This document shows, in pieces, positions 11,733-46,768 of a stretch of DNA of 64,000 nt. The position numbers were made by a program, and so were the translations under genes. The stretch is from Anaerolineae bacterium (lineage in GTDB: Bacteria > Chloroflexota > Anaerolineae > Aggregatilineales > Aggregatilineaceae). Numbering within the stretch: position 1 is the first letter of the stretch; every line of letters begins with the position of its first letter. Location: NCBI GenBank assembly GCA_018432315.1, contig JAHDLB010000004.1, forward strand, positions 248,001 through 312,000, in the 5' to 3' direction. The notes beneath the pieces were generated by a model. It did no database searches. It worked only from the letters and a program-made list of their open reading frames with translations, and was not told the origin of the DNA.

Positions 11733-11850
11733 GTAAGCAACCCCACGGCTAAAGCCGGGGGCTTTGTCCCTGGCGCTACGCCATAAGGGGCGTATCCGAG
11801 ACGTTTGGGCAGCTTACAGCGCCCCGGCGACCAATATTGATCGCCGCGAT
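11733..11850 (-). ncRNA. Candidate TnpB guide RNA (omega/reRNA) at the right end
   Basis: Known TnpB systems transcribe a guide RNA from the 3' end of tnpB through the right-end hairpin into flanking DNA. The matching hairpin is at 11741-11761 just after the tnpB stop. The guide portion would come from the flank below 11733. Borders are inferred by analogy only. Confidence 0.4.
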
Positions 11851-12876
11851 GTGGTCGGCCTGTCCAGAGAAACCGCACGACACACAGGAGAACGTAGCTT
11901 GAGAAGGTCGATTGCGTTTGTCGATGTGCCCGCAGGTCGGGCAGGTGCGCGAGGTGTTACGGGGATCAACCGCGACCACCGGCACGCCTGCCAGGCGTGC
12001 CTTGTACTCGACAAAGGCCCGGAGTTGGAAGAACGACCAGCTATGCAGCGTGGCTCTCTGAGCGCGACGAACCGTTACCCGGTCGCGGATACCGCTCAGG
12101 TCTTCGAGAGCGATCCCGCGTCCGGTGTCTTGCGCGGCAGTCACGATGCGCCTGCTAATCGTGTGGTTAGTGTGGGTGGCAAAACGGCGCTCTTTGCCCG
12201 CCAGCTGCTTAAGGCGGCGTCGCGCCGACTTTGTGCCCTTGCTTTGCAGCCTGGCGCGCAGGCGGCGGTGACGGTGGCGCACGTTGTTCACCGCGCGGCT
12301 GCTGTGCCCCGTTCCGTCGCTGTCGGTGGCGATGTTGACAATGCCCAGGTCCACGCCCAGGAAGTCGTCTACCTCCGCGGCAGGCGGCTCGTCCACTTCG
12401 CAGACCTGATGCAGGTAGAACGCGCCACGGCGGTAGACCAAATCCGCCTCGCCCTGCATAAACGGCAGCAAGGCAAGCTGGCGTTCGCCCGCGACGAACG
12501 GGATGGTCTGCCGCCCGCCGACCGTCCAGATGCTCACGGTCTGCGCGGCGAGCTTCCAAGCCAGGATGCGCTTGTCGTAGGCGATGCTGCCGTGCGGGTG
12601 AAACGTGCGACGCGTCTTGCGGTCGAGCTTGTAGGCGTCCGCGACTTTGGCAATCGTGCGAACCACCATCTGGGCCGACAACTCAAACCGAGCGCGCACG
12701 TCATAGTAACAGACGTGGTGCAAGTCATACTGGCGAAAGGTCTGGGTGTCCCAGGCGACTTCGCTCACGTCGTTCGCCGCTGCGTTCGCCGTTTCCAGCG
12801 TGCGGCGCAGTAGTTCGGTTTGCCCTGGTTCGGGCTGGAGCTTGACCTGAGCAATCAGTTTCATAGTGCCCAGCAT
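11776..12876 (-). CDS. tnpB: RNA-guided endonuclease TnpB
   Basis: TnpB/OrfB of the IS200/IS605 group, 366 residues from the MLGTMKLIAQVKL start, a normal length. The RuvC-like catalytic residues are intact: Asp176 in GVDLGIVNIAT, Glu259 in IALEDLSGI and Asp341 in SGQADHIAAINI. The zinc finger Cys312, Cys315, Cys331 and Cys334 lies between the last two (CPTCGHIDK and CVSCG). In characterised members TnpB cuts DNA guided by RNA from the element's right end and so favours element retention. The upstream in-frame extension to 12975 runs through the left-end hairpin and is rejected. It looks functional rather than decayed. Confidence 0.92.
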   Translation of the reverse strand: MLGTMKLIAQVKLQPEPGQTELLRRTLETANAAANDVSEVAWDTQTFRQYDLHHVCYYDVRARFELSAQMVVRTIAKVADAYKLDRKTRRTFHPHGSIAYDKRILAWKLAAQTVSIWTVGGRQTIPFVAGERQLALLPFMQGEADLVYRRGAFYLHQVCEVDEPPAAEVDDFLGVDLGIVNIATDSDGTGHSSRAVNNVRHRHRRLRARLQSKGTKSARRRLKQLAGKERRFATHTNHTISRRIVTAAQDTGRGIALEDLSGIRDRVTVRRAQRATLHSWSFFQLRAFVEYKARLAGVPVVAVDPRNTSRTCPTCGHIDKRNRPSQATFSCVSCGFSGQADHIAAINIGRRGAVSCPNVSDTPLMA

Positions 12877-12968
12877 AGCACACTCGTTCTGAAAGTTCAA
12901 AACTTGAAAGGAGAAGTCTCGCCTACCTCCCCGCGCCTGAAGGCGGGGGTATCCGGCGAGTGTTTCTG

Positions 12969-14048
12969 ATGACACTGATTTTTGGCATCGAAACCTCGTG
13001 CGATGAAACCGCCGCCGCCGTCGTCGAAGACGGCGAGCGCATGTTATCCAACGTTGTCGCGTCCCAGATCGACCTGCACGCCCAGTACGGCGGCGTCTTC
13101 CCCGAGGTCGCGTCGCGCGCGCACATCGAGGCGATCAGCCACGTCGCCCGGCAGGCGCTCGACGACGCGGGCGTGACGCTCGACGCGCTCGACGCCATCG
13201 CCGTGACGCGCGGCCCCGGCCTGGCGGGCTCGCTGCTGGTGGGCGTGAACTTCGCCAAGGGACTCGCCCTGGGCCGCGACCTGCCGCTGGTCGGCGTGAA
13301 TCACCTGGAAGGACACGTCTACTCGCTGTGGCTGACCGGGCGCGAGGCGCCGGTCCGCTTCCCGGTGGTGTGCCTGATCGTGTCCGGCGGGCACAGCGAG
13401 ATCGTGCTGATCGAAGGGCACGGGCAGTACACGCTCCTCGGCAGCACGATCGACGACGCGGCGGGCGAAGCCTTCGACAAGGTCGCGCGGCTGCTCGGCC
13501 TGTCGTATCCCGGCGGGCCGGTCATCGAGCGCGTCGCCCGCGAGGGCGATCCCCAGGCGTACAGCTTCCCGCGCGCGCTGCACGGCGAGGGCTACGACTT
13601 CAGCTTTTCCGGCCTCAAGACGGCGGTGCTGCGCGCCGTCCAGCCGCCGCAGGAAGGCAGGCGCCTGCCCAAGAACGAGGGCATGACGCCCGACCAGCTC
13701 GCGCCCGGCGTCAACGTGGCCGACGTGGCGGCCAGCTTCCAGGCGGCGGTGGTCGATGTGCTGGTCGAAAAAACGGTGGGCGCCGCCGGCGAGCACGGCG
13801 CGACCGAAATCTGGATGGCAGGCGGCGTGAGCGCCAACACCGCGCTGCGCGGGGCGATGTCGGCGGCCAGCCCGCTGCCGGTGCGCTACCCGCCGCTCAA
13901 GCTGTGCGTGGACAACGCCGCGATGATCGCGTCGGCGGGCTATTTCCGGTTCCGGGCGGGCTACCGCGACGACCTGGCGATGGACGTCCGCCCGATGTGG
14001 CCGCTGGTGTCCGTCGCGGAGGTGATGGCCCGCCCCGTGGCGCCGTGA
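12969..14048 (+). CDS. tsaD: tRNA threonylcarbamoyladenosine transferase TsaD
   Basis: Essential enzyme that transfers the threonylcarbamoyl group to A37 of ANN-decoding tRNAs, 359 residues. The N-terminal ATPase-type motif IFGIETSCDETAAAVVEDG, the metal-binding HIEAISH/NHLEGH histidines and the C-terminal GGVSANTALR and CVDNAAMIASAGY motifs are all present. ATG 12969 fits the family; GTG 12960 is in frame. There is no clear Shine-Dalgarno because the left end of the TnpB element stops about 10 bases upstream, so expression signals may now come from the element or from read-through of the upstream gene. Confidence 0.96.
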   Translation: MTLIFGIETSCDETAAAVVEDGERMLSNVVASQIDLHAQYGGVFPEVASRAHIEAISHVARQALDDAGVTLDALDAIAVTRGPGLAGSLLVGVNFAKGLALGRDLPLVGVNHLEGHVYSLWLTGREAPVRFPVVCLIVSGGHSEIVLIEGHGQYTLLGSTIDDAAGEAFDKVARLLGLSYPGGPVIERVAREGDPQAYSFPRALHGEGYDFSFSGLKTAVLRAVQPPQEGRRLPKNEGMTPDQLAPGVNVADVAASFQAAVVDVLVEKTVGAAGEHGATEIWMAGGVSANTALRGAMSAASPLPVRYPPLKLCVDNAAMIASAGYFRFRAGYRDDLAMDVRPMWPLVSVAEVMARPVAP

Positions 14049-14723: not shown

Positions 14724-14748
14724 GCCCGGTAGAACGGCGCGATCGCGT

Positions 14749-14778
14749 CCCGGTGGGAACCCCGCCGGGGCGTTTTTT
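14749..14778 (+). terminator. Rho-independent terminator of def
   Basis: CCCGGTGGG (14749-14757) folds onto CCCGCCGGG (14761-14769) with one mismatched pair (T-G) and a short loop, followed by a T-run (TTTTTT 14773-14778). Confidence 0.85.
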
Positions 14779-14792
14779 GTCGCGTGCAAACA

Positions 14793-14812
14793 GAACAAAA
14801 GTTCGGTATAAT
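14793..14812 (+). promoter_or_regulatory. LexA-type SOS box abutting a TATAAT promoter
   Basis: The perfect palindrome GAAC-AAAA-GTTC (14793-14804) is followed by GG and a consensus -10 TATAAT (14807-14812). GAAC-N4-GTTC is the core of the Gram-positive LexA/DinR operator. The -35 region is weak (GTGCAA at 14784-14789). LexA bound here would block the promoter of the radical SAM gene. The identical 12-mer occurs at the nadK-recN promoter. Confidence 0.7.
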
Positions 14813-14826
14813 CTGGGTAGCGTTGG

Positions 14827-15993
14827 ATGCTGCCGAGGATGCCGGACATGGATGGTGAAGACCTGCTCAAAAACCTGCGCGGCGTGACCGAGTTCGAGGT
14901 GGCGGGCGACCAGCCCCAGCGCGCGCGCCCGGTCCGCTCGCCGCGCCTGCCGCCGGACCTGAGCGGATGCGTGACGCACGTGACCGCGGGCAGCCGCAAG
15001 ATGCCGGTGCTCAAGGCGCTGACGACCACCGCCTGCGAGCGCGACTGCTTCTACTGCCCGTTTCGCGCCGGGCGCTCGTCCATGCGCCGGATCACCTTCT
15101 CGCCGGACGACATGGCGCAGGGCTTCATGGCGCTGCACCGCGCCGGGGTGGTCGAGGGGCTGTTCCTGTCGTCGGGCGTGATTCGCGGCGGCGTCACCAC
15201 CCAGGACTCGATCCTGGATACCGGCGCCATCCTGCGCGAGAAATACGGCTATAGCGGCTACATCCACCTCAAGATCATGCCCGGCGCCGAGCGCGATCAG
15301 GTCCGGCAGGCGATGGAGCTGGCCGACCGCGTGTCGATCAATCTCGAAGCGCCGAACGCCCGCCGGTTGGAGGTCATCGCGCCGGGGAAGAATTTCGACG
15401 ACGAGCTGCTGGCGCGGCTGCGCTGGGTGACGGATCTGCGGCGCGAAAGCGAGGGACGGCTGCGGGCCAGCAGCACGACCGAGTTTGTCGTCGGCCCGGC
15501 GGGCGAGCGGGATCTCGAAATCCTGTCGATGACCGACGTGCTCTACCGCCAGTTGGGGCTGGCGCGCGCCTACTTCTCGGCCTTCCGCCCCGTGATGGAC
15601 ACGCCGCTCGACAACCTGCCCGCCACGGACAGCCTGCGCCAGCTTCGCCTGTACCAGGCCAGCTTCCTGCTGCGCGATTACGGGTTCGACCTGGAGGAAC
15701 TGCCGTTCGTGGGCGAGGGCGACCTGCCGCTGCAGATCGATCCCAAGCGGGCCTGGGCGGACCAGCACCTGGCGCAGACGCCGCTGGAGCTCCACACCGC
15801 CTCGCGGCGCGAGCTGATGCGCGTGCCGGGGATCGGCGCCACGAGCGCCGACCGGATCATCGCGGCGCGGCGCAAGGGCCGCCTGCACGATCTGGCCGAT
15901 TTGCGGGCGGTGGGCGTGGTGAACGTCAACCGGATGGCGCTCTACGTGCTGCTCGATGGCCGGCGGCCCGTGGAGCAGCCGCGCCTGTTCTAG
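14827..15993 (+). CDS. Putative DNA modification/repair radical SAM protein with HhH domain
   Basis: A 388-residue protein. The radical SAM iron-sulfur motif is Cys70, Cys74, Cys77 (ACERDCFYCPF). A helix-hairpin-helix DNA-binding region lies near the C-terminus (RRELMRVPGIGATSADRIIA, about 329-348, then LADLRAVGVVNVNRM). This matches the uncharacterised rSAM family known to co-occur with a uracil-DNA-glycosylase-linked partner, from which a DNA repair role has been proposed. The partner is not adjacent here. A LexA-type box overlaps its promoter, which supports a DNA-damage role. ATG 14827 lies 15 bases after the -10; ATG 14848 with GAGG upstream is an alternative. Its TAG stop is shared with the convergent gene. 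Confidence 0.85.
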   Translation: MLPRMPDMDGEDLLKNLRGVTEFEVAGDQPQRARPVRSPRLPPDLSGCVTHVTAGSRKMPVLKALTTTACERDCFYCPFRAGRSSMRRITFSPDDMAQGFMALHRAGVVEGLFLSSGVIRGGVTTQDSILDTGAILREKYGYSGYIHLKIMPGAERDQVRQAMELADRVSINLEAPNARRLEVIAPGKNFDDELLARLRWVTDLRRESEGRLRASSTTEFVVGPAGERDLEILSMTDVLYRQLGLARAYFSAFRPVMDTPLDNLPATDSLRQLRLYQASFLLRDYGFDLEELPFVGEGDLPLQIDPKRAWADQHLAQTPLELHTASRRELMRVPGIGATSADRIIAARRKGRLHDLADLRAVGVVNVNRMALYVLLDGRRPVEQPRLF

Positions 15994-43454: not shown

Positions 43455-45200
43455 TCAGGCAGTGGTTTCGAGCCGGCGCCCTTCTTTGAGGCGGCGCGCC
43501 AGCATCAGGATGTCGTAGGCGCTCTGGCGAGCGCTGTCCGTTTCGGCGCCCAACATCTCGGCCAGTTCGTCGACGCGGCCCTGGTCGTCCAGCCGCTGGA
43601 CCTGGGTCACCGTGCGCTTGTTCTGCACGTGCTTGCTGACGCGGTAGTGCGCGTCGCCGAACCCGGCGAGCTGCGCCAGGTGCGTGACGACCAGCACCTG
43701 GTGCCGGTCCGAGAGCCGCCAGAGCTTCTGGCCGACCAACGCGCCGACCCGCCCGCCGATGCCCTGGTCGATCTCGTCGAAGATGAGCGTGGGCACCTGG
43801 TCGGCGTGGGTCAGCACGCTCTTGAGCGCCAGCATGATCCGCGCCGTTTCGCCGCCGGACGCGACCTTGGCGATCGGGCGCAGCGGCTCGCCCACGTTGG
43901 CCGCCATGTAGAACTCCACCTGATCGATCCCGGTGGGGCCAAAGGCCAGCCGCCGGTCCTCGACGAAGCAGCCTTCGGGATCGTCCTCCCAGGCGATCTG
44001 CACCTCGAAGCGGGCGCCCTGCATTTTCAGCTCGTCCAGCTCGCGGACGATGGCCCCGGTCAGTTGTTGGGCGGCGGCCCGCCGCTTGGCGCTCAACTGC
44101 GCGGCCAGCGTGCCGATCTGGCGCAGCAGGCGGTTCTCCTGGGTCCGCAGCTCGGCCAGCCGTTCCTCGCTGTGCGTGATGGATTCGAGCTCGGCGCGGG
44201 CTTTGTCGGCGTGCGCCAGCGCGGCCTCGATGCTGCCGCCGTACTTGCGCTTGAGCCGCGTGATGATCTCGACCCGCTCCTCGATCTGGTCCAGCCGGTG
44301 CGGGTCGTATTCGATCGTTTCGCGGTACTGCCGGACGGCGCGCGCTAGCTCGTCGGCCTGGGCGCTCAGGCTTTCGGCCAGCTCGGCGTACTCGGCAATC
44401 GTCGGGTCGAGTTTCGCCAGCCGCGACAGGTCGATCGCCGCCTGGGCCAGCAGGTCGACGCCGGCTGTCTCGCCCATGTCGCCCAGCAGCGCGTACTGGG
44501 CCTCGGTCGCCAGCTCCGCGATTTTCTCGGCGTTGACCAGCCGGTTGCGCTCCTGCTGGAGCTCGTCTTCCTCGTCGGGGCGCAGGGCGGCGGTGTCGAT
44601 CTCCTGGACCTGGTATTGCAGCATGTCCACGCGGCGGGCCAGGGCGGCCTCGTCGGTGAGCAGGCTCTTGATCTCGGCCTGGACCTGGTCCAGCGCGCGG
44701 ACCACTTCCTTGAACCCGGCGCGGGCGTCTTCCAGCCCGGCGTAGCGGTCCAGCAGGTAGATGTGCTGGGCCGGGCGCAGCAGTGAGAGGTGCTCGCCCT
44801 GGCCGTGAATGTCGACCAGCATCCCGCCGATCTCGCGATAGACGGTCAGGTTGCAGGTCGTGCCGTTGATGCGCGCCTGGCTGCGCCCGCTGCTGCGCAC
44901 CTCGCGGGTGAGGATCACCTCGTCGGGCGCCTCGCCGTCCAGCCCTTCGGCCTCCAGCAGGGCGTGCACCTCGGCCTGGAGCGCGGGCGGGATGGCGAAA
45001 ATGCCCTCGATCACGGCCCGGTCGGCCCCGCCACGGACCAGCGTCGCGTCCGAGCGCTCGCCGAGCAGCAGGTTGACCGCGTCGACGATGATCGACTTAC
45101 CGGCCCCCGTCTCGCCGGTGATCACCAGGAAGCCGGAATCGAGGGTGAGGGTCAGCTCGTCGATGATTGCGAAATCTTTGATGCGCAGTTCGTGAAGCAT
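43455..45200 (-). CDS. recN: DNA repair protein RecN
   Basis: SMC-like ATPase that acts early in double-strand-break repair, 581 residues. N-terminal MLHELRIKDFAIIDELTLTL and Walker A GETGAGKSI (residues 29-37) are diagnostic. The long coiled-coil middle, a Cterminal signature motif (VASGGETARIMLALK) and Walker B (LIFDEIDQGIGGRVG) are all present, and HLAQLAGFGDAHY is typical. It is the last gene of the nadK-zinc protein-recN operon, starting 12 bases after the zinc protein gene. recN is a classic SOS gene, and a LexA-type box precedes the operon. Confidence 0.97.
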   Translation of the reverse strand: MLHELRIKDFAIIDELTLTLDSGFLVITGETGAGKSIIVDAVNLLLGERSDATLVRGGADRAVIEGIFAIPPALQAEVHALLEAEGLDGEAPDEVILTREVRSSGRSQARINGTTCNLTVYREIGGMLVDIHGQGEHLSLLRPAQHIYLLDRYAGLEDARAGFKEVVRALDQVQAEIKSLLTDEAALARRVDMLQYQVQEIDTAALRPDEEDELQQERNRLVNAEKIAELATEAQYALLGDMGETAGVDLLAQAAIDLSRLAKLDPTIAEYAELAESLSAQADELARAVRQYRETIEYDPHRLDQIEERVEIITRLKRKYGGSIEAALAHADKARAELESITHSEERLAELRTQENRLLRQIGTLAAQLSAKRRAAAQQLTGAIVRELDELKMQGARFEVQIAWEDDPEGCFVEDRRLAFGPTGIDQVEFYMAANVGEPLRPIAKVASGGETARIMLALKSVLTHADQVPTLIFDEIDQGIGGRVGALVGQKLWRLSDRHQVLVVTHLAQLAGFGDAHYRVSKHVQNKRTVTQVQRLDDQGRVDELAEMLGAETDSARQSAYDILMLARRLKEGRRLETTA

Positions 45201-45212
45201 ACCGGACCACTC

Positions 45213-45725
45213 TCAGGTTGTCAGCCGCAGGCCAAACTGCGCGACCGCCGTGCCAGTCGCCATGAACAGGTAGATCCCGACGCTGAGCGGGTTGAACAGC
45301 AGGAAGGGCAGCGCGCCCAGCACGACGCAGGTGCCCACCACGGCGCCGGTGTAGCGCCCGCGCCGCTTGCCAGTGAGCGTCATGACGGCCCTGCCGATCA
45401 GGCCGCCCGCCGCCGGCGCCAGGAAGAACGCAATGAAGAACCAGCCGATCCGCGCCAGAATCCCGGCGGCGAAGAAGCTCATGACCAGCGTCACACCCGC
45501 GGCAATCAGGTAGTCGAGCATCTGCGCGTTGAAAAACTTATCCTGCTGCTCGCGGACGCATTCCCGGCAGCGATAGCCGACCGGCGTCTTGACGGCGCAG
45601 CGGGTGCACATCGGGCGCCCGCAGCGATTGCAGCGCAGGCTGGTGGCCGTATTCGGATGGACGGTGCAGTACACCACCTCTTCTTCGCTGGTGTCGGTGT
45701 CGTCGATTCGCTCTGAAACGGTCAT
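45213..45725 (-). CDS. B-box-like zinc-finger membrane protein
   Basis: A 170-residue protein. The N-terminal half has a Cys/His zinc-binding array (YCTVHPNTATSLRCNRCGRP, then MCTRCAVKTPVGYRCRECVR) similar to B-box fingers. The C-terminal half has three to four hydrophobic segments (YLIAAGVTLVMSFFAAGIL, WFFIAFFLAPAAGGLIG, TGAVVGTCVVLGALPFLLF). The function of such fusions is not known to me. ATG 45725 has better spacing from GAGGAA than the adjacent ATG 45728. It sits between nadK and recN with gaps of 20-23 and 12 bases. Confidence 0.8.
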   Translation of the reverse strand: MTVSERIDDTDTSEEEVVYCTVHPNTATSLRCNRCGRPMCTRCAVKTPVGYRCRECVREQQDKFFNAQMLDYLIAAGVTLVMSFFAAGILARIGWFFIAFFLAPAAGGLIGRAVMTLTGKRRGRYTGAVVGTCVVLGALPFLLFNPLSVGIYLFMATGTAVAQFGLRLTT

Positions 45726-45748
45726 CATCTTTCCTCAAGGTCGATGTT

Positions 45749-46654
45749 TCATCCCTGATTCTGGCTTGAATCGGTGGAATTGCCCACTGGCAGGCGGTTG
45801 GTGTGCGGCGGCACGCGCGGCTCCAGCCGGTCGAGCAGCGAGCGGTAAAAATAGTTGCGCTCGCGCAGGCGCACGAACTGCGTGATCCGGTCGCTGGCGC
45901 GCACGACGACCTCGTCGGACGGTTCCAGGCTGGCGATCAACTCGCCATCCACCGTCAGGAACACTTCGGCCAGCGTCTGCGGCTCCACGACGACCGTGAT
46001 CGTCGCGCCCTGCGACAGCACCATGGGCCGGTCCATGCTCAGATGTGGCGCGACCGGCGTCACCAGGATGTTCTTCAGCTCCGGCGGCAGGATCGGCCCG
46101 CCCACCGCCAGCGCGTAGGCCGTCGAGCCGGTCGGCGTGGCGATGATCAGGCCGTCGCCGTGATACGTCGTCGCCCAGCCGCCGTCGATGTACGTCTCCA
46201 GCCGGACCGACCGGGCGATGGCGCCCCGGTTGATCACCACGTCGTTGAGCGCGTCGTTGGTCCCCAGGCTCGCGCCGTCGCGCCGGATTTCGTAGCGGAT
46301 CATCATCCGCTCCTCGATCCAGTACCGGCCCGCCAACAGGGCCTCCAGGCTGGCCTCCCATTCTTCCGGGTTGATCTCGGTCAGGAAGCCGAGATAGCCC
46401 GTGTTGATGCCGAACACCGGCACGCGCTCCGGCGCGCACACGCGGGCCGCGCGCAGCATCGCGCCGTCGCCGCCGATGGCAACGACCAGGTCCGAGTCGT
46501 GAACCAGGGGCCGGACGTTCGGCATGTCCCACACAGTGCGCATCCAGGTCGTGATGTGGTGATCTTCCAGGGACCGGGTCAGGTCCTGGGCGATGGGGAC
46601 CGTGCCTGGGCGCAGCGGGTGAGCGAGTATGCCGATCGTCTGGAAGGTCTTCAA
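45749..46654 (-). CDS. nadK: NAD kinase
   Basis: Phosphorylates NAD to NADP, 301 residues. The GGDG motif (LVVAIGGDGAMLRAAR), the GINTGYLGFLTEI motif and the glycine-rich HGDGLIIATPTGSTAYALA region are clear. The usual ALNE substrate-binding motif reads ALND here, a conservative change. The start is TTG 46654 with GGGGAG eight bases upstream. It heads the operon with recN, as in many bacteria. Two promoters are visible upstream, one with a LexA-type box. Confidence 0.96.
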   Translation of the reverse strand: MKTFQTIGILAHPLRPGTVPIAQDLTRSLEDHHITTWMRTVWDMPNVRPLVHDSDLVVAIGGDGAMLRAARVCAPERVPVFGINTGYLGFLTEINPEEWEASLEALLAGRYWIEERMMIRYEIRRDGASLGTNDALNDVVINRGAIARSVRLETYIDGGWATTYHGDGLIIATPTGSTAYALAVGGPILPPELKNILVTPVAPHLSMDRPMVLSQGATITVVVEPQTLAEVFLTVDGELIASLEPSDEVVVRASDRITQFVRLRERNYFYRSLLDRLEPRVPPHTNRLPVGNSTDSSQNQG

Positions 46655-46739: not shown

Positions 46740-46768
46740 ATTATACGAACAAAAGTTCTAACTCGCAA
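46740..46768 (-). promoter_or_regulatory. Distal promoter P1 of the nadK-recN operon
   Basis: On the minus strand TTGCGA (46768-46763) and a perfect TATAAT (46745-46740) are spaced by 17 bases. The predicted start is near 46733. Confidence 0.65.
46747..46758 (-). promoter_or_regulatory. LexA-type SOS box within the P1 spacer
   Basis: GAACAAAAGTTC (perfect GAAC-N4-GTTC palindrome) fills the -35/-10 spacer of P1 and ends one base from its TATAAT. The same 12-mer is found at 14793-14804. Bound LexA would block P1 directly. Confidence 0.75.

Follow-up and report, generated by a model that had tools for sequence, protein, structure and literature searches.

A probable LexA operator in the promoter of a stand-alone radical-SAM/helix-hairpin-helix gene of Chloroflexota

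In the window analyzed here, a 64,000-nucleotide stretch of the genome of an Anaerolineae bacterium of the order Aggregatilineales (Chloroflexota), a gene encoding a radical-SAM protein with a helix-hairpin-helix (HhH) region is preceded by a promoter of its own that contains, between the -35 and -10 elements, the palindrome GAACAAAAGTTC, a putative LexA operator. Judging from the sequence and from its conservation, we consider it highly probable that this gene is controlled by LexA, as part of the SOS response, through the operator in the promoter spacer. Such control had been proposed in an earlier note on this DNA, and the proposal is supported by the presence of a lexA gene, by a matching box at the lexA promoter and by the retention of the box in related genomes. 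By contrast, the statement in the same note that this family is tied to DNA repair solely by co-occurrence with a uracil-DNA glycosylase (UDG)-type partner has been overtaken by the literature: the relevant passages of PMC8565304 describe the COG1573-COG4277 operon (UDG plus radical SAM) of Bacteroidetes as being under SOS-type control, and cite such control for Verrucomicrobia and Alphaproteobacteria as well. What appears to be new is that membership of the radical-SAM gene in the SOS network would be independent of a UDG partner and widespread among the Chloroflexota members examined.

The arrangement noticed originally, with the palindrome two bases upstream of a consensus TATAAT in front of the radical-SAM/HhH gene, is confirmed, the two-base gap being GG (14805-14806) (Table 1). 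The -35 element is weak, and a scan for consensus promoters in the window found none before the radical-SAM gene; in many relatives, the -35 place of this promoter is occupied by TTGCNN or TTGACN. Between the upstream peptide deformylase gene and this promoter lies a terminator-like hairpin, which would insulate the promoter, so that the radical-SAM gene seems to be transcribed from a promoter of its own.

Table 1. Features of the window and the recA paralogues of the same genome (contig and locus in brackets or before the colon)
Feature	Position	Strand	Basis or remark
Terminator-like hairpin, then T-run	14745-14773	+	after the upstream peptide deformylase gene (profile match for the latter)
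Weak -35 element GTGCAA	14784-14789	+	17 nt before TATAAT
Putative LexA operator (SOS box) GAACAAAAGTTC	14793-14804	+	between -35 and -10 of the radical-SAM gene; sequence, conservation counts
-10 element TATAAT	14807-14812	+	sequence
Stand-alone radical-SAM/HhH protein (COG4277/TIGR03916-related)	14848-15993	+	profile matches, alignments, model; alternative ATG 14827
Radical-SAM [4Fe-4S] motif CERDCFYC	15034-15057	+	C70, C74, C77 (numbered from 14827)
C-terminal HhH DNA-binding region (PF12836, HHH_3)	15784-15912	+	over cut-off; helices in model
recN (TIGR00634, 564.7 bits, over cut-off)	43455-45200	-	presumed operon with NAD kinase
Small protein, B-box zinc-finger similarity below Pfam cut-off	45213-45728	-	between NAD kinase and recN
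NAD kinase, leading gene of the recN cluster, after the second box	45749-46654	-	profile scans
Second putative LexA operator GAACTTTTGTTC (minus-strand reading; 12-mer identical to GAACAAAAGTTC)	46747-46758	-	1 nt upstream of TATAAT
Two full-length recA paralogues	C35:77529 (L076), C3:139919 (L077)		box-like GAAC-N4-GTGC at one only

The motif GAAC-N4-GTTC occurs three times in the window (14793, 46747 and 15697); 100 dinucleotide shuffles gave an expectation of 0.75, with at least three matches in 4 of the 100, so that by count alone the motif exceeds chance only slightly within the window. The earlier note had estimated about one chance match per 64 kb and had argued that position and the second copy are decisive. 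Both promoter copies lie 1-2 bp before a TATAAT, and it is this position that lifts the motif beyond the significance of the bare count. The 12-mer GAACAAAAGTTC itself was found twice in the 5.69 Mb genome, among the matches listed for GAACWNNNGTTC, both times inside the window. The third match in the window (15697-15708) falls within the frame that encodes the radical-SAM protein; it was taken as a chance occurrence.

Conservation of the box was assessed in three sets of loci that share genomes. The radical-SAM protein is present in 41 of 61 genomes (our own and 60 relatives), with loci available for 30; excluding our own locus and one without upstream DNA left an order set of 28, in which the search covered the 180 bp that precede the coding core. 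A perfect box was found in 24 of these 28 relatives, with the four spacer letters variable, so the conservation in close relatives that the earlier note had named as a check is indeed observed; the 255 other half-sites scored on average 0.08 of 28, and the best of them 4. A draw across the phylum comprised 251 genomes, 39 of which have a family member at an E of 1e-40 or lower, and yielded 30 loci, 10 with perfect boxes compared to a mean of 0.10 for other half-sites; among the remaining 20, a one-mismatch site was present within 450 bp in 14 and absent in 6, which is an uncontrolled count. The third set consisted of the best 80 of 326 loci, assigned to Chloroflexota by title, of which 63 could be anchored (13 had no anchor motif and 4 no upstream DNA): the box is perfect in 34, has one mismatch in 25 and is found in neither form in 4, that is, 59 of the 63 are within one mismatch, the means for other half-sites being 0.19 (perfect) and 4.1 (at most one mismatch) and the best values 2 and 17. 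Across these overlapping sets, and in counts made without a shuffled control, a -10-like TANNNT follows the perfect box by 0-3 nt in 63 of 68 loci, and TTG precedes it by 8-14 nt, also in 63 of 68, which suggests that the operator fills the spacer between the -35 and -10 elements. That an eight-base palindrome came to lie in this spacer by accident, as might be argued from the 4 in 100 window shuffles that match the count and from the many inspected genomic boxes that sit within long open frames, is hardly credible and seems already contradicted by the conservation counts, given that the relatives keep the box while its spacer letters change.

The source genome, which is 99.4% complete, contains a single lexA gene, one of the checks proposed originally (profile search, E 2.4e-53, 182 bits, over cut-off), and the promoter of this gene reads TTGACA-TC-GAACATGAGTTC-GGTT-TATAAT. 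A lexA match was obtained in 58 of the 61 genomes, and loci were available for 30, our own included; within 200 bp upstream of lexA, the box is perfect in 22 of these 30, carries one mismatch in 7 and is missing in 1, the best other half-site being perfect in 2 of 30. The perfect sites at lexA promoters indicate that GAAC-N4-GTTC is very probably the LexA operator of the order Aggregatilineales. The description of this motif as the core of Gram-positive LexA operators agrees with the pertinent part of PMC3323433, where GAAC-N4-GTTC is given as the Gram-positive LexA motif and CTGT-N8-ACAG as that of most beta- and gammaproteobacteria; compared to the Gram-positive operator as presented there, the half-sites, the 4-bp spacing and the location in the promoter core are the same, here in combination with a Chloroflexota LexA.

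The expectation that lexA and recA would both carry the motif holds for lexA. At recA the picture is weaker, and it speaks against the LexA reading that neither paralogue in our genome has a perfect box. One paralogue has GAACGCCTGTGC, which matches 7 of the 8 fixed bases and lies in the promoter spacer, between TTGACG and TAAACT; at the other, the box was not found even when one mismatch was allowed. Among 28 anchored recA loci (3 of 31 were not anchorable, and both paralogues are mixed), the box is perfect in 3 and has one mismatch in 11; two other half-sites score higher than GAAC/GTTC, with 5 perfect matches each. The form GAAC-N4-GTGC recurs upstream of recA in L279, L280, L285, L294, L299 and L304; a recA site, when there is one in these Chloroflexota, differs from the Gram-positive GAAC-N4-GTTC operator in being degenerate, frequently of this form.

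At its presumed cleavage site, the LexA protein of our genome (L010:1521-2255) carries Ala-Ser (GKIAASAP), as do most of the relatives among L123-L151 in which the site was detected; L123, L136 and L138 have Ala-Gly there. The usual residues at the LexA cleavage site are Ala-Gly, so self-cleavage of LexA in this lineage is not certain.

The genome also encodes a small LexA-HTH-like protein of 120 aa (L027:1535-1897; 22.4 bits at a Pfam cut-off of 23.7) that lacks a peptidase match and has a perfect box of its own, GAACAAATGTTC, approximately 22 bp upstream of the first start codon; it is possibly a second regulator that competes for the same operators. One could go further and assign GAAC-N4-GTTC not to LexA but to this protein or, for instance, to a phage-type repressor, and the box in front of the L027 gene fits such a scheme. 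We regard that as very unlikely because the box in the core of the lexA promoter in 22 of 30 loci is the mark of LexA autoregulation, and because the further genes with boxes include recN, uvrA, tag and ssb, which are classical damage or replication genes.

Across the genome, there are 88 GAAC-N4-GTTC sites, compared to 15 for the reversed control; when a TATAMT is required within 0-4 nt of the box, 5 sites remain, compared to 0, and summed over 31 genomes this layout occurs 105 times, compared to 4 for the control. The five sites belong to lexA, the radical-SAM gene, the NAD kinase-recN cluster, tag (3-methyladenine glycosylase I, 254.5 bits, over cut-off) and a putative short transcript discussed below. 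The genome-wide search that had been suggested does recover SOS genes: recN is a textbook member of the SOS response, and, in addition to lexA, the recN cluster and tag with the promoter layout, perfect boxes without the strict layout are located upstream of uvrA and ssb, as well as gyrA, gyrB and the genes for a HerA-like ATPase, a DinB/YfiT-like protein and the LexA-HTH-like protein. Control of gyrA and gyrB by the box is not convincing, the sites being approximately 75 and 180 bp, respectively, upstream of the first start codon, with no adjoining consensus -10. In front of the NAD kinase gene, a second, box-free promoter-like site lies nearer to the gene than the box at 46747. The inspection covered sites in 44 loci out of the 88 boxes, and 20 proteins encoded near boxes were scanned against Pfam, 8 of them without a match; other proteins near boxes, such as FAD-binding, lysine-aminomutase-like and GidA-like ones, have no evident SOS link.

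The product of the radical-SAM gene is 388 aa long if translated from 14827 and 381 aa if translated from 14848; the latter start is the likelier one because full-length members of the family align from query residues 5-8 onward and a GAGG precedes this ATG by 9 nt. The CX3CX2C motif and the radical-SAM barrel are both present (PF04055, 37.7 bits, over cut-off), and C70, C74 and C77 are invariant in 58 sequences, with no other cysteine in any column that is invariant or nearly so; in the HhH region, P334 and G337 are invariant in the same number of sequences. The match to TIGR03916 (rSAM_link_UDG) scores 253.4 bits (E 4.2e-75) and falls below the curated cut-off of 343.5, that is, by sequence, the protein is homologous to this family but outside its curated limits. 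The structure model has a mean pLDDT of 92.3, and the nearest solved folds among the matches listed are lipoyl synthase (4u0o: Z 18.8, rmsd 2.9, 224 aligned), HydE and biotin synthase; the C-terminus gives profile matches to the HhH of ComEA and of X-family polymerases. Neither fold listing has spore photoproduct lyase among its 50 matches, although the folds may still be alike. The product is predicted to be a radical-SAM barrel with a single cluster, joined to an HhH module, and the shared fold by itself says nothing on the function of the protein.

The UDG-type partner expected for this family was not found in this lineage. TIGR03914 (the UdgX family) has no match over the cut-off in any of the 61 genomes, with weaker matches in 59; of 11 such weaker matches scanned, our own included, 10 are family-4 UDGs over the cut-off of that family and one, in L081, stays below the cut-offs of both models. 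TIGR03915 was likewise found in none of the 61 genomes, while two control genomes do match. Partner sequences used as tblastn queries had no match in 140 Chloroflexota loci, the flanks of which extended up to 1.5-3 kb, and when ORFs of at least 90 aa were clustered across 80 loci, some of them short-flanked, no widely shared neighbor emerged, the five largest clusters being the gene itself or overlapping frames and the next one occurring in at most 7 loci. Co-regulation in trans with a UDG was considered and rejected as well: none of 12 UDG loci has a perfect box within 250 bp, and 2 have one with a single mismatch. In an unrooted tree of 32 rows, the 9 partnered ones form one side of a branch with 100/100 support, so that, on this sequence evidence, the Chloroflexota gene belongs to a stand-alone group, apart from the partnered members. 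The sole conserved context found is the LexA box, and it appears that SOS membership follows the radical-SAM gene itself. As a separate observation, the L081 protein (G053:C2:42728-43321) scores 132.9 bits with the UdgX-family model and 110.6 with that of family-4 UDG, both below cut-off, and is possibly a divergent UdgX in one relative of the order.

For comparison, 14 plasmid-borne family members from other groups were picked among 40 of 158 records. In 12 of these, the next gene belongs to the UdgX family (9) or to TIGR03915 (3): UdgX is annotated in Caballeronia, Paracoccus, Azospirillum, Ketogulonicigenium, Phaeobacter and Leisingera and was detected by scan in Cupriavidus, Ensifer and Sulfitobacter, and TIGR03915 is annotated in [Eubacterium] eligens and was detected by scan in Phocaeicola and Acetoanaerobium. 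As for the other two, the Neokomagataea record stops 27 bases past the radical-SAM gene, and the long ORF directly after this gene in Gemmatirosa reads as a histidine kinase. Within 250 bp upstream of the coding core, one of four LexA-type patterns, counted without a shuffled control, is present in 11 of the 14 members: all 8 from Alphaproteobacteria have GAAC-N7-GAAC, the reverse complement of GTTC-N7-GTTC, which we take to be the alphaproteobacterial LexA operator, both members from Betaproteobacteria have CTGT-N8-ACAG, and [Eubacterium] eligens has GAAC-N4-GTTC; none of the four patterns was found in this interval in Gemmatirosa, Phocaeicola and Acetoanaerobium. The occurrence of unlike LexA-type operators in different clades suggests that the partnered and the stand-alone groups are both tied to LexA.

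With respect to the operon described in the available part of PMC8565304, the likeness is that a homologous radical-SAM/HhH protein is found under a LexA-type operator, and the difference is that the Chloroflexota gene, across the 100/100 branch, goes without UdgX or TIGR03915 over cut-off in the 61 genomes. A COG1533 enzyme is likewise a radical-SAM protein in an SOS network and is set apart by family name, given that our protein matches TIGR03916. A literature search, with most subscription journals outside its coverage, found no paper on the LexA regulon of Chloroflexota, and none that combines UdgX with radical SAM.

By analogy with the classical SOS response, LexA bound to the spacer operator would block RNA polymerase at the radical-SAM promoter; upon DNA damage, RecA would be activated, LexA would cleave itself, and the radical-SAM gene would be switched on together with lexA, the NAD kinase-recN cluster, tag and, probably, uvrA and ssb. 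Binding, cleavage and induction at this promoter are inferred here from sequence. Conceivably, the induced enzyme then brings its radical chemistry to bear directly on the damaged DNA, with neither UdgX nor TIGR03915, in a manner similar in logic to that of spore photoproduct lyase; this step, which derives from the domain content alone, has in our estimate about an even chance of being correct. The fuller proposition, that Chloroflexota and, perhaps, Gemmatimonadota possess an SOS-induced, self-sufficient radical-SAM/HhH enzyme for the direct radical repair of a DNA lesion, with no UdgX or TIGR03915 at its side, is put forward tentatively, as somewhat less probable than that.

The SOS control could also be real and the protein not a repair enzyme at all: it might modify a protein or the nucleotide pool, or serve damage tolerance, with the HhH region as a docking module. 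SOS regulons do include non-repair genes, and the solved folds nearest to the model, those of lipoyl synthase, HydE and biotin synthase, belong to enzymes that do not act on DNA. Nevertheless, we consider a non-repair role less likely than not, albeit worth serious attention, in view of the HhH region with its invariant proline and glycine, the similarity to the HhH of ComEA and X-family polymerases, and the adjacency of the partnered genes to UdgX, a uracil-DNA binding protein, or TIGR03915.

If direct repair by the radical-SAM protein is the correct reading, a second SOS-linked lineage of radical-SAM DNA repair would exist besides SplB, and the radical-SAM protein, not the UDG, would be the core of the known COG1573-COG4277 operon. 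With the partner absent and the SOS box the sole conserved context found, the link to damage belongs to the radical-SAM protein itself. This partner-free case contrasts with the treatment of the radical-SAM protein, in the passages of PMC8565304 concerned, as one half of a UDG operon. The question of the function of the COG4277 family can thus be reduced to a biochemical test of one protein, and a computed, partial set of SOS genes is now at hand for this order.

Several other sites deserve mention. In L058 (1735-1885; C24:168234-168384), a LexA-type promoter composed of TTGACA, GAACATACGTTC and TATACT has no obvious ORF downstream; the roughly 115 nt that follow close with a strong GC-rich hairpin (fold z -3.1). 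The one match in an Rfam scan of this putative short transcript had an E of 0.96, below gathering, and the product is possibly an SOS-controlled small RNA or peptide. A second perfect box (L058:1702-1713) is located 45 bp from the first one and 44 bp upstream of a divergent gene for a carbon-nitrogen hydrolase (minus strand, 764-1657; PF00795, 112 bits). In L072 (1784-1865), three GAAC-N4-GTTC matches, about 35 bp apart and with ACCAGT alongside, fall within one open frame and are unlikely to be operators. Finally, the window itself contains, on the minus strand at 11776-12975, a gene for a TnpB-type transposon protein of 399 aa (Cas12f1-like_TNB, 78 bits; OrfB_IS605, 46 bits).
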